Assembly (NCBI RefSeq): GCF_000455365.1
Contig: NZ_HG315685.1
Span: 478,794-542,793 of the forward strand
Origin: Halopiger djelfimassiliensis
Lineage (GTDB): Archaea > Halobacteriota > Halobacteria > Halobacteriales > Natrialbaceae
Length of the DNA: 64,000 nucleotides
Direction of reading: 5' to 3'
Part shown: in pieces, positions 26,572 through 31,927 of the stretch
How positions within the stretch are numbered: the first letter of the stretch is position 1
How the letters are laid out: each line of letters starts with the position of its first letter
Notes under the pieces: model-generated
The model's database searches: none
The model's input: the letters and a program-made list of their open reading frames with translations, nothing else
What the model was told of the DNA's origin: nothing
Program-made: the position numbers and the translations under genes

Positions 26572-26829
26572 ATGGTCCGTGAAAACAGGCTGACACGACG
26601 TCGCACGCTCGGAACGATCGGCGCTGCAGTATCGACGGTGGTCGTGGCCGGGTGTGGCGGCCCGGGCGAAGAGGGCAACGAAACGGAACCGGCGGGCGAG
26701 GAAGAACCCGGCGAGGAAAACGAGACGGGCCAGGAAACCGACAACGAGTCGGACGATGAACTCGAGTCCGAGGAGGGAACGGGCAACGGGCAGGATATCG
26801 AGGAGGAGGAAAACGAAACCGGAACCTGA
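26572..26829 (+). CDS. Short acidic Tat lipoprotein
   Basis: An 85-residue protein. TRRRTLGTIGAAVSTVVVAGC is a twin-arginine signal ending in a lipobox with the Cys at residue 28. The mature part is about 57 residues of Glu, Asn, Gly and Thr only (NETE and NETG motifs give N-glycosylation sequons), with no predicted fold. It is probably a lipid-anchored, possibly glycosylated surface peptide. Similar low-complexity text occurs in the two paralogues at 29-32 kb. Confidence 0.8.
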   Translation: MVRENRLTRRRTLGTIGAAVSTVVVAGCGGPGEEGNETEPAGEEEPGEENETGQETDNESDDELESEEGTGNGQDIEEEENETGT

Positions 26830-27996: not shown

Positions 27997-28272
27997 CTAG
28001 ACGTCGACGTACTGGTCGACCCACTCCTGACGGCGTTGCAGCACGCGTCGGCCTTTCGGTGTCAGCGCGTAGTAGTTCGTCCGCCGGTCGAGTTGCCCCT
28101 TTTCGACGAGTTCCTTCTCGACGAGGGTGTCGAGGTTCGGGTACAGCCGGCCGTGGGTGACCGGCTGGTCGATGTAGCGGTTGATATCGTCGAGGATCTC
28201 CTGTCCTGACGGCCGGTCTTTGCCTGCGATCACGTACAGTAAGTCACGCTGGAATCCTGTGAGCTGATCCAT
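27997..28272 (-). CDS. PadR family transcriptional regulator
   Basis: A 91-residue winged-HTH protein: DLLYVIAGKDRPSGQEILDDI, then VTHGRLYPNLDTLVEKELVEK with the PadR GRLYPxLxxLxxxGL pattern, and the wing RRTNYYALTPKGRRVL. It is a minimal PadR without the long C-terminal dimer helix, a common haloarchaeal form. It is divergent from the Nudix gene. Ligand and target are unknown. Confidence 0.92.
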   Translation of the reverse strand: MDQLTGFQRDLLYVIAGKDRPSGQEILDDINRYIDQPVTHGRLYPNLDTLVEKELVEKGQLDRRTNYYALTPKGRRVLQRRQEWVDQYVDV

Positions 28273-28448: not shown

Positions 28449-29006
28449 ATGCCAACTGATCCACTCGCCTGGGAAACGCTGGATCGGCGGACCGCCTACA
28501 CGTGCCCCGGCTTCGATATCGTTAACGAATCCGTTCGCCTCCCCGACGGGACCGAAACCGAGTTCGATTACCTCTCGGAGCCGGCGAGCGTCTGTCTCCT
28601 CCCGTTTACCCCCGACGGCGAGGTCGTCTGTATCGAGGAGTGGCGACAGGCAGTCTCCCGCGTCAACCGCGGCCTCCCCGTCGGCGGCACCGAACCGGAC
28701 GACGAGGACCTCGAGTCCGCCGCTCGGCGCGAACTCACCGAAGAGACCGGCTACGAAGCCGACGACCTCGAGCCGCTGGTGACCGTCGAACCGGCAAACG
28801 GGATCGCCGACGCGGTGTTGCACTTTTTCGTCGCTACCGGCTGTCGTCCGACCGCCGAACAACGACTCGATCACAACGAGAGCATCCGGGTGATGACGAT
28901 GGGTTTCGAGGAACTGCTCGATGCGGTCGGGGCGGGTGAGATCCGCGATGGACGGACGGTACTGGCTCTGTCGTACTACCAGTTGTTCGGCGACCGGGAA
29001 CGGTAA
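28449..29006 (+). CDS. Nudix hydrolase (ADP-ribose pyrophosphatase-like)
   Basis: A 185-residue hydrolase of nucleoside diphosphates linked to another moiety. The full Nudix box is present at about residues 80-102: G-x5-E-x7-RELTEETGY. The preceding SRVNRGLPVGGTEP and the following DDLEPL match NudF/ADP-ribose pyrophosphatase-like members. ATG at 28449 (MPTDPLAWE). Substrate inferred only from family resemblance. Confidence 0.9.
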   Translation: MPTDPLAWETLDRRTAYTCPGFDIVNESVRLPDGTETEFDYLSEPASVCLLPFTPDGEVVCIEEWRQAVSRVNRGLPVGGTEPDDEDLESAARRELTEETGYEADDLEPLVTVEPANGIADAVLHFFVATGCRPTAEQRLDHNESIRVMTMGFEELLDAVGAGEIRDGRTVLALSYYQLFGDRER

Positions 29007-29085
29007 CGCGGCCGCTCGAGCCGTCTACTGGGGTGACATCGAAAAAACGGCGGTGAACGACGGGGTCCCGGCGCGGTCGTGCCGA

Positions 29086-30258
29086 TCAGCGAAGCGCTGC
29101 AAGCGACTGCTGCTCGTCCTCTGTGGCCGTTTCGTTGTCCGCTTCGGTTTCGTTGTCCGCTTCGGTCTCGTTCCCGTCCATCGTCGTCTCCTCGAGTTCC
29201 TGTGCGTCGCCGAGGGTCACGGTCTCGGCGGTCGAGTCACCGATCGTGATCACGGACGCGGAGGCCTGCGAGACGGTTTCGCCGGCGGTTTCGTTGTCCT
29301 CCATGTCGGTTTCGTTGTTCTCGGCAGTCTCGTTGTCCGCCATGTCGGTTTCGTTGTCTTCGGCGGTCTCGTTGTCTCCGGCTTCGCCGCCGTCCGCTTC
29401 CTCGAGCGTCTGGATGGTCATCGATTGCATCGAGATCTCGTCGACGTCGAACTGCTCGATCGTGAGCTCCTCGATCTCTTCGCTCACGGTCTCTTCGGTC
29501 TCGTTAGCAGCGCCGTCGTCTTCGGCGGTTTCGTTTTCGCCTTCCGTGTCACCCTCGTCACCGCCGCCGAAGATACCTTCGAAGAAGTCACCGATCTGGT
29601 CGAGGACGCCCTGATCTTCCTCGACGGTCAGGTCGTCGATCGTCATCTGCTCGACGTCCATCGTCTCGATGGTGAGGTTCTGGACGGTGAGTTCGTCGGC
29701 GTCCTCGGCGATCAGATCCTGCCCGGCGTCGGTCTCGTTGTCCTCCATCTCAGTCTCGTTGTCCTCCATCTCGGTCTCGTTGTCCTCCATCTCGGTCTCG
29801 TTGTCCTCCATCTCGGTCTCGTTATCTTCCATCTCCTCACCGTCGAGTTCGAGGTCCTCCATCGTGACGTCCTCGAGTTCGAGCGATTCGATCTCGATAT
29901 TGGAGATGTTCACGTCTTCAGCCGTCTGATTTTCGCCGTCGGTGGTCTCGTTGTCCTCGGTCTCGTTGTCCTCGGTCTCGTTGTCCTCGGTCTCGTTCTC
30001 TTGGCCCTCGTCGAGTTGCTCGGTGAGTTGCTGGGTATCGCCCTCGAGTTGGCCGATGTTCAGCTCCTCGATGGTGGCGTTCTCGATGGTGGCGTTCTCG
30101 AGCTCGAGCGTCCCCACCTGGATGTTTTCGAGTGTTGCGCTCACGTCTCCGGTGCCGTCGTTCGTGCCCGTGGTTGCTCCGGCGAGGGCGGGACCCCCCG
30201 ACAGCGCAACCAGCAGTGCGACGAAGACGACTCCGAATTGCTGTGGTCGTGTAACCAT
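29086..30258 (-). CDS. Secreted acidic NET-repeat surface protein A
   Basis: A 390-residue secreted protein. A Sec-type signal (FVALLVALSGGPALA) is cleaved near residue 27. The mature protein alternates beta-type repeats (TLELENATIENATIEELNI, LTIETMDVEQMTIDDLTV) with runs of EDNETEM. It contains about 24 N-x-S/T sequons, mostly NET, so it could be densely N-glycosylated. A Gly-rich turn (IFGGGDEG) lies in the middle. There is no C-terminal anchor. A paralogue follows upstream at 30510-31859, and the first 25 residues of both are nearly identical. Function unknown. Confidence 0.85.
   Translation of the reverse strand: MVTRPQQFGVVFVALLVALSGGPALAGATTGTNDGTGDVSATLENIQVGTLELENATIENATIEELNIGQLEGDTQQLTEQLDEGQENETEDNETEDNETEDNETTDGENQTAEDVNISNIEIESLELEDVTMEDLELDGEEMEDNETEMEDNETEMEDNETEMEDNETEMEDNETDAGQDLIAEDADELTVQNLTIETMDVEQMTIDDLTVEEDQGVLDQIGDFFEGIFGGGDEGDTEGENETAEDDGAANETEETVSEEIEELTIEQFDVDEISMQSMTIQTLEEADGGEAGDNETAEDNETDMADNETAENNETDMEDNETAGETVSQASASVITIGDSTAETVTLGDAQELEETTMDGNETEADNETEADNETATEDEQQSLAALR
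29730..29834 (-). repeat. Coding tandem repeat, five copies of 21 bp
   Basis: Five near-perfect copies of a 21-base unit encode MEDNETE on the minus strand. A second tandem array (four 15-base copies encoding EDNET) is at 29943-30002. Copy number could change by slippage without breaking the frame. Confidence 0.8.
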
Positions 30259-30300
30259 ACGCGCTGGGCTACAGCCGTTTCCTCGCTAAAACGAGGCGAC

Positions 30301-30326
30301 TGTTACAGTATTGTCGCGGTGAAACC
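30301..30326. promoter_or_regulatory. Degenerate inverted repeat upstream of surface protein A
   Basis: TGTTACAGTA and CGGTGAAACC around ttgtcg is a decayed copy of the perfect inverted repeat found at the same distance before the paralogue. It lies 43-68 bases upstream of the start, just beyond the TATA-like cgttttag on the minus strand. Confidence 0.5.
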
Positions 30327-30509
30327 CGCTGTTGGCGTCCGTTCCATGCGCTTTAATCGCCGGTTCATCCGCCGATCGGTGCATCGCTTTCCGCGCGTGT
30401 CGCTTCGCACGCCGGATCCGAACCGTCGTTCTAGTCGGCCTCGGGTGGTCGAGAAAAAGTGGATCGGGTGGCGTTCGTCCGGGTGCGGCGATAGCGGCGT
30501 TCGTGCCGA

Positions 30510-31859
30510 TCAGCGCTTGGCGATCGAGGGCTGGTCCGCTTCGTCGGTGAGGTTGTCGTCCATCTCGCCGTCCTCGATGACCTCCGTTTCGTCTTCGTCG
30601 GTGAGGTTGTCGTCCATCTCGTCGTCAGTCGTTTCGTTCATTTCGGTGGCCGCAGTGTCGCCGACGCCTTCGAGGTCGGAAGCGTCGCCGAGCGTCAGCG
30701 TCTCTCCCATCGCGTCCTCGATCATGATCGTCGACGCGGAGACGTGGGAGATCGTGTGCCCGTCAGTGTCGTCCTCGGTATCGAGACCGTTCTCGTCGTC
30801 AGTGACGTTGTCATCCATCTCGTCTTCGACGGTGACGTTGTCATCCATCTCGTCGTCCTCGCCAACGACGGTGACGTTGTCCTCGTCGTCCTCCATCTCG
30901 TCCTCGCCGACGGTGTCGGCAGCGTCGTCGGCTTCTTCGACTGATTCGACCGTCATCGACTCGATACTGATCTCCTCGACGTCGAACTGCTCGATCGTGA
31001 GCTCCTCGAGTTCCTCCGCCTGTGCGGCGGTGTCCATCTCGTCGTCCTCGGTGACCTCCGTTTCGTCTTCGTCGGTGACGTTGTCCATCTCGTCGTCCTC
31101 GCCAACGACGGTGACGTTGTCCTCTTCGTCTTCCATCCCGTCGTCGGTGAGGTTGTCGTCCATGGTTTCGGCGGTGTCCGTCCCGACGCTCAGATCGTCG
31201 ATCGTCAGCCGCTCGACGTCCATCGTCTCGATAGTGAGTTCCTGGACCGTCAGTTCATCAGCGTCTTCACTGATCAACTCTCCGTCCATTCCGTCGTCGG
31301 AGACGTTGTCGCCCATCTCGTCGTCCTCGGCGAGCTCGTCTCCAGTCTCGTCCTCAGTGAGGGTGTCGTCGTCTTCCATCTCGTCCTCAGCGAGGGTGTC
31401 GTCGTCTTCCATCTCGTCGTCCTCGGTGAGGTTGTCACCCATCCCGTTGCCGTCGTGTTCGATGTCCTCGATCGAGACGCCCTCGAGTTCGAGCGACTCG
31501 ATCTGGATGTCGGAGATGGTGACCTCCTCGGTCATGTTGTCTCCGACGCCGTCGTCAGTCGTCTCGGTTTCCTCCTCTTCAGTAGTCGCGTTGTCCGCGG
31601 TGTCGGTCGCCCCCTCGAGTTCGTCCTGGAGTTCCTGTACGTCCGCGTCGAACTGTTCGACGTTCAGCTCTTCGATCGTCGCGTTCTCGACGGTGACGTT
31701 CTCGAGCTCGAGCGTCTCGACCTGTACGTTTTCCAGCGTTGCGCCCATGTCTCCGGCGTCGTTCGCAGCGGTAGTCGCGCCAGCGAGGGCAGGACCCCCC
31801 GAGAGCGCAACCAGCAGTGCGACGAAGACGACGCCGAGTGTGTGCGGTCGTGAAACCAT
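30510..31859 (-). CDS. Secreted acidic sequon-rich surface protein B
   Basis: A 449-residue paralogue of the adjacent protein A. The signal peptide (FVALLVALSGGPALAGATT) and the beta repeats (VETLELENVTVENATIEELN; LTIETMDVERLTIDDLSV) are shared. The low-complexity parts differ: EMEDDDT, DDNLTDED, EDNVTVV, with about 15 sequons (NVT, NLT, NAT, NMT, NVS, NET). Asp and Glu make up a very large share. No anchor motif. Both copies are transcribed leftward with related upstream regions, so they arose by tandem duplication of gene plus promoter. Confidence 0.85.
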   Translation of the reverse strand: MVSRPHTLGVVFVALLVALSGGPALAGATTAANDAGDMGATLENVQVETLELENVTVENATIEELNVEQFDADVQELQDELEGATDTADNATTEEEETETTDDGVGDNMTEEVTISDIQIESLELEGVSIEDIEHDGNGMGDNLTEDDEMEDDDTLAEDEMEDDDTLTEDETGDELAEDDEMGDNVSDDGMDGELISEDADELTVQELTIETMDVERLTIDDLSVGTDTAETMDDNLTDDGMEDEEDNVTVVGEDDEMDNVTDEDETEVTEDDEMDTAAQAEELEELTIEQFDVEEISIESMTVESVEEADDAADTVGEDEMEDDEDNVTVVGEDDEMDDNVTVEDEMDDNVTDDENGLDTEDDTDGHTISHVSASTIMIEDAMGETLTLGDASDLEGVGDTAATEMNETTDDEMDDNLTDEDETEVIEDGEMDDNLTDEADQPSIAKR

Positions 31860-31901
31860 GCGGGCTGAGCTACAGCTATCGACCGGCTAAAACGAGGTGA
31901 C

Positions 31902-31927
31902 TGTTTCAGCGTTATCTCGCTGAAACA
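31902..31927. promoter_or_regulatory. Perfect 10-bp inverted repeat upstream of surface protein B
   Basis: TGTTTCAGCG and CGCTGAAACA flank ttatct. It is 43-68 bases upstream of the ATG at 31859, and a TATA-like cgttttagcc (minus strand, about 31886-31895) lies between it and the gene. Position fits a regulator site adjoining BRE/TATA. A decayed version lies before the paralogue. Confidence 0.62.

Follow-up and report, generated by a model that had tools for sequence, protein, structure and literature searches.

Two neighbouring genes in the 64,000-nucleotide stretch of the Halopiger djelfimassiliensis genome analysed here (the window) raise the question of why a haloarchaeon should place so many potential N-glycosylation sites in a pair of putative secreted proteins, and whether these sites are likely to be used. 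Gene A (29086-30258, minus strand; 390 aa) and gene B (30510-31859, minus strand; 449 aa) are complete open reading frames with confirmed boundaries, separated by a gap of 251 bp. Their products align with 57% identity, and no further family members were found in the same genome. The original prediction described a tandem pair with 24 (A) and 15 (B) N-x-S/T sequons, mainly NET in A and NVT or NLT in B, together with signal peptides, acidic runs, beta-like repeats and tandemly repeated codons; the counts proved exact, NET recurs almost throughout A, and each of these features was recovered. Whole-protein shuffles would lead us to expect only 4.8 and 3.1 sequons, respectively (z = 10.4 and 7.2). 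Both proteins start with a hydrophobic signal sequence (residues 1-26; 30181..30258 in A and 31782..31859 in B, both minus strand) that ends in GGPALA followed by GA, is conserved in a 36-row alignment and is presumably cleaved after ALA. Both are also extremely acidic and nearly free of Lys and Arg, and possess neither a lipobox nor any Cys in the mature part. Their C-termini (...QQSLAALR and ...QPSIAKR) carry neither a PGF-CTERM sorting signal nor a transmembrane anchor. A 989-aa stop-free open reading frame antisense to both genes (28921-31890, plus strand) is most likely a shadow of acidic GC-rich coding sequence and not a gene. A further sequon-rich putative exported protein is encoded nearby by an 85-aa open reading frame (26572-26829, plus strand), which, with RRRT... 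and a VAGC lipobox, resembles a Tat lipoprotein; NET and NES sequons occur in its acidic tail.

The alignment of 123 full-length relatives revealed a signal peptide and five conserved blocks of ~25-35 residues each, with linkers of 3 to 121 residues between them. In A, the blocks span residues 43-73 (30040..30132), 114-139 (29842..29919), 180-213 (29620..29721), 255-289 (29392..29496) and 325-358 (29185..29286), all on the minus strand, with block 1 delimited by the alignment and blocks 2-5 by the alignment and AlphaFold2. Similarly, the alignment places the blocks of B at residues 42-72 (31644..31736), 111-136 (31452..31529), 193-226 (31182..31283), 277-311 (30927..31031) and 366-399 (30663..30764), again on the minus strand. 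A five-residue periodicity, as in LTIEQ FDVDE ITIES MTVES L, runs through the blocks, and an AlphaFold2 model built with 74 relatives renders the best blocks as strands with pLDDT around 90, in keeping with the beta-like repeats noted at the outset, and most linkers at low confidence. Profile searches of A and B against Pfam and NCBIfam returned no significant family (Pfam none at E <= 1), Foldseek returned no confident neighbour in PDB or BFVD (nothing below E 3), and B has no significant relative among PDB sequences. The blocks are probably pentapeptide-like beta-helix coils, for which the sole profile support comes from one distant relative (L216) that matches PF13599 weakly (E 2.4e-4, under the curated cut-off). 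The five linkers of A hold its sequons, and linker 3 of A-type members additionally contains an amphipathic helix, GVLDQIGDFFEGIFG, which AlphaFold2 and paralogue comparison place at residues 218-228 of A (29575..29607, minus strand) and which is absent from the otherwise A-like B. Of the 36 genomes that encode two full members, 35 have the helix in exactly one of the pair, which suggests that A and B are old, separate paralogues.

A and B belong to an unnamed, unannotated haloarchaeal family that is present in most Natrialbaceae. The search for homologues suggested in the original prediction found relatives in 99 of 125 Natrialbaceae genomes, and more distant ones in other families of the order. 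In most loci the gene or gene pair is flanked by tgtA on one side and a Nudix/PadR pair on the other. Synteny is preserved, inheritance of the locus is vertical, and the blocks are strongly conserved. In Natrinema (L074-L089) the ancestral tandem pair is split, with B beside tgtA and a RaSEA-like radical SAM gene and A beside the Nudix gene; some 30 kb separates the two copies, with an inversion in several genomes. A phage or plasmid origin was rejected, as tblastn of B against phage and plasmid collections gave no match in either. The PadR-family regulator gene (27997-28272, minus strand in the window) adjoins the A/B locus in 127 of 144 entries and is a candidate regulator of the pair. Most members are preceded, ~30-50 bp ahead of the start codon, by a promoter-like element with the consensus GTAACAGTCGCCTCGTTTTAGC. 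The copy before A, AACAGTCGCCTCGTTTTAGC (30285..30304, minus strand), includes a TATA-like TTTTAG ~33 bp ahead of the ATG, and a matching copy, conserved in relatives, precedes B (31886..31905, minus strand). Allowing up to three mismatches, the element was matched in the genome of H. djelfimassiliensis at these two sites only, which suggests a private control that is probably common to both genes. A partial dyad just upstream of the element (~48% complementarity vs a median of 24%) is too incomplete to be claimed as one. Distant homologues retain the signal peptide and block 1, with further block-like stretches recognisable by eye, and their linkers vary in kind, from N-x-S/T arrays (NESEMD repeats, L208) to Thr-rich arrays (e.g. 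EETTMAAEETT in L219 and TETPGE in L218) and acidic mixtures. This variation makes the linkers look like exchangeable carriers of glycans or charge around a conserved core. The Thr-rich or PT-rich linkers of L218, L219 and L222 (the last with EAPTTT, and also with DUF7282) appear to be O-glycosylation counterparts of linkers with N-sequons.

The density of sequons in A and B is a property of some genomes and not of others. Among the 96 genomes with loci examined, 55 are sequon-rich and 41 are not; none is mixed, and two (G007 and G021) are intermediate. Linker statistics were based on full-length members alone (54 rich and 37 poor genomes), with each linker shuffled separately. Rich linkers contain 1574 sequons against 317 ± 14 expected, a fivefold excess that corresponds to 10.6 sequons per 100 aa (~one site per ten residues) and places 93% of linker Asn in sequons. 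Poor linkers contain 12 against 24.8 ± 4.8 expected, a modest depletion, with ~1% of their Asn in sequons; when whole proteins are shuffled locally instead, the poor set looks neutral (70 vs 81.5 ± 8.5). In the rich set the sequons occur in 669 distinct 6-mer contexts, and the Ser/Thr frequency around Asn reaches 86% at position +2 and at most 35% at any other offset within eight residues. A slight difference in locus GC content (64.6 vs 62.8%) was rejected as the cause, since its direction should work against Asn codons in rich genomes. That the sequons merely result from low-complexity DNA repeats and from the D/E/N/T composition typical of halophile linkers, without selection for glycosylation, is scarcely credible despite the tandem codon repeats in the linkers and the length shifts between close relatives, because a fivefold excess over linker-wise shuffles in so many contexts rules out chance, a repeat artefact or copies of one unit, the signal is confined to +2, and poor linkers are equally repeat-structured and hold 8.3% Asn, yet almost none of it in sequons.

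The composition of the linkers also bears on whether the switch might reflect Asn chemistry at high pH, where disordered extracellular Asn would deamidate and alkaliphiles would drop it, with no glycan function involved. The alkaliphiles identified here are indeed among the poor genomes. However, Asn is retained in poor linkers, where the next residue is most often Asp or Gly, and Asn-Gly is itself a deamidation-prone pair. What vanishes is Ser/Thr, from 18% of linker residues in the rich set to 3% in the poor set, and we therefore regard this explanation as very improbable. At the same time, Asp and Glu rise from 36% of rich linkers to ~61% of poor ones, and mature proteins of the poor set carry a net negative charge of 0.50 per residue, as against 0.30 in the rich set.

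Whether N-glycosylation could operate on these linkers depends on the oligosaccharyltransferase AglB, which is encoded in H. djelfimassiliensis (G000; TIGR04154 match, E 2.1e-265, above the curated cut-off) and in all 111 near-complete genomes, whether rich or poor. The switch is thus not a matter of enzyme loss, and the presence or absence of AglB was ruled out as its cause. As putative exported proteins with sequons in which x is not Pro, in a host that encodes AglB, A and B have the sequence features expected of AglB-dependent N-glycoproteins. We consider it likely, judging from sequence, that the linker Asn residues are heavily glycosylated. In Haloferax volcanii, AglB attaches a uronic-acid-rich N-glycan at N-x-S/T (PMC8241124), so that added Asp/Glu could make up for the charge of the missing glycans.

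The same tripeptides could be kept for another reason, such as the binding of divalent cations by D-N-x-T/S loops, which would be lost where soda-lake carbonate removes Ca and Mg. Motifs resembling DDNETD and EDNETE are abundant in the linkers, and soda brines are described in one account as low in divalent cations (PMC4766312). However, a range of residues (E, A, V, D, Q, L, M) is freely accepted at the x position and in the flanks, N-P never occurs, and the third residue can be either T or S, a pattern expected of AglB sequons and unlike that of a metal-binding loop. Furthermore, PGF-CTERM surface proteins of the same genomes (L134-L163) show a sequon trend of equal direction, with 1.40 sequons per 100 aa in rich genomes (126 vs 79 expected) and 0.56 in poor ones (48 vs 42 expected). 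Cation binding is therefore a quite unlikely explanation. The PGF-CTERM trend is weaker than that of A and B, and hints at a secretome-wide shift.

The distribution of the two states across species indicates repeated switching and a possible connection with brine pH. On a TgtA tree about 15 state changes are needed, of which at least 6 are forced by well supported branches, and close relatives can occupy opposite states (G094 rich, G089 poor), even though the clustering of states is partly phylogenetic. Poor members include Natrialba magadii, Natronococcus occultus (from Lake Magadi), Natronorubrum daqingense (optimum pH 10; PMC10342064), Natrarchaeobaculum sulfurireducens (an obligate alkaliphile; PMC6176080), Natronorubrum bangense ('haloalkaliphilic' in the title of its original description, as cited in PMC8530250) and Natronosalvus amylolyticus (optimum pH 8.0-8.5; PMC10963439). 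Rich members include Haloterrigena turkmenica, Halopiger xanaduensis, Halobiforma lacisalsi, Natrinema zhouii, Natronococcus sp. CG52 and AD-5, Natronosalvus rutilus and Haloterrigena alkaliphila. All five documented or soda-lake alkaliphiles are poor. The rich state is found in 29 of 29 genomes of the Natrinema genus group and 6 of 6 of the Haloterrigena group, both described as neutral, with optima of pH 6.0-8.2 and pH 7.0-8.0, respectively, in the emended genus descriptions (PMC8530250), and Natronorubrum, described as alkaliphilic or neutrophilic (PMC8530250), holds both rich and poor members. Haloterrigena alkaliphila, rich despite its name, is a possible exception, and a literature search for its pH optimum found none. 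Because of this name and the incomplete coverage of pH optima among rich species, the link with pH is a supported hypothesis rather than a result, and that brine pH drives the switch is a tentative proposal to which we give slightly less than even chances.

Another possibility is that A and B, though glycosylated, evolve under diversifying selection as adhesins, virus decoys or S-layer partners, with the switch following phages or neighbours instead of pH. Fast linker turnover, repeated switching even between close relatives, and paralogue pairs with one amphipathic-helix form each are all compatible with such a role. On the other hand, the high conservation of the blocks, the syntenic and vertically inherited locus, and the alkaliphiles all falling on one side argue against it, and we judge it unlikely.

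The reading we favour, and consider somewhat probable on the sequence evidence, is that A and B are exported beta-block proteins with AglB-glycosylated acidic linkers, forming a mucin-like coat whose chemistry is set per genome. The five beta blocks would fold into a core or rod, from which the five disordered acidic linkers would loop out as dense acceptor arrays for N-glycosylation by AglB. Glycans together with Asp/Glu could then create a hydrated, negatively charged coat on or around the cell. Gain and loss of repeats would lengthen and shorten the linkers. In A, linker 2 carries a 21-bp unit x 5.1 (95% match; 29729..29835, minus strand) encoding MEDNETE, and linker 1 a 15-bp unit x 3.6 (100% match; 29944..29997, minus strand) encoding EDNET, while B contains units of 33 and 36 bp. 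In orthologue pairs whose blocks are 99% identical, single linkers differ in length by 31 and 57, or by 15 and 59, residues, and no indels occur in the blocks of pairs whose linkers differ by up to 59 residues; length differences confined to the linkers at such block identity support repeat gain and loss between species. Coat chemistry would rely on glycan sites in some lineages and on plain Asp/Glu in others, including the alkaliphiles identified here. We hold it possible, though just short of an even bet, that, around folded blocks that are retained, the linkers of all paralogues in a genome have switched together, time and again, between saturation with sequons (over 90% of linker Asn) and near absence as an adaptation to brine pH, with Asp/Glu replacing presumably acidic glycans.

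Compared with the original prediction, heavy glycosylation has gained strong sequence support from the fivefold enrichment and the presence of AglB while still being a prediction, and the proposed variation in length through repeats holds between species, within the repeated linkers. The 'mucin-like surface layers' went beyond the evidence: the 37 genomes almost without linker sequons indicate that the family can do without the glycan sites, and with no recognised anchor the proteins may be released. To us, a mucin-like coat role stands at about even odds. The original prediction had missed that the proteins are built of blocks, that they are conserved across the family and that their linker sequons switch in an all-or-none manner. 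The family offers many natural replicates of the gain and loss of a dense coat of glycan sites in one syntenic orthologue, AglB being retained in rich and poor genomes alike. It bears on the reasons for surface-protein glycosylation in haloarchaea and on the adaptation of the cell exterior in their alkaliphilic members. Rich and poor orthologues provide a test case for N-glycans and peptide acidity as interchangeable routes to a hydrated, charged surface, and A and B are strong candidate substrates for archaeal glycoproteomics. If the adaptation to pH is true, sequon content would be a readable genomic record of alkaliphily.

Several known systems resemble parts of this architecture. Animal mucins share disordered, length-variable, glycan-acceptor linkers between folded parts; this is an analogy only, as the sites in A and B are of the N-linked type and those of mucins are O-linked, and there is no homology. 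Pentapeptide-repeat proteins (PF00805/PF13599 clan) share the five-residue rhythm and alternating inward hydrophobics of the blocks, whereas A and B have no Pfam match, place large residues where A(D/N)LXX has small ones, and interrupt their blocks with long disordered linkers. The S-layer glycoprotein (TIGR04216) and PGF-CTERM surface proteins are likewise exported and acidic, with AglB-type sequons and the same rich/poor direction, but A and B lack a PGF-CTERM or transmembrane anchor, consist of five beta blocks instead of an S-layer fold, and reach in the family's linkers about eightfold the sequon density of PGF-CTERM proteins (10.6 vs 1.4 per 100 aa). Halomucin (HmuI) of Haloquadratum walsbyi is a secreted, repeat-rich glycoprotein with a Sec signal, proposed to form a water-holding cloud, and its repeat part changes length between strains (PMC3119063). 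Compared by description, A and B are similarly secreted, repeat-rich, haloarchaeal and variable in repeat length. HmuI is about 8,000-9,000 aa long and sporadic, whereas A and B are about 400 aa (390 and 449) and syntenic in most of the family. Halomucin is the closest functional analogue of A and B, which by their size stand outside the halomucin group.
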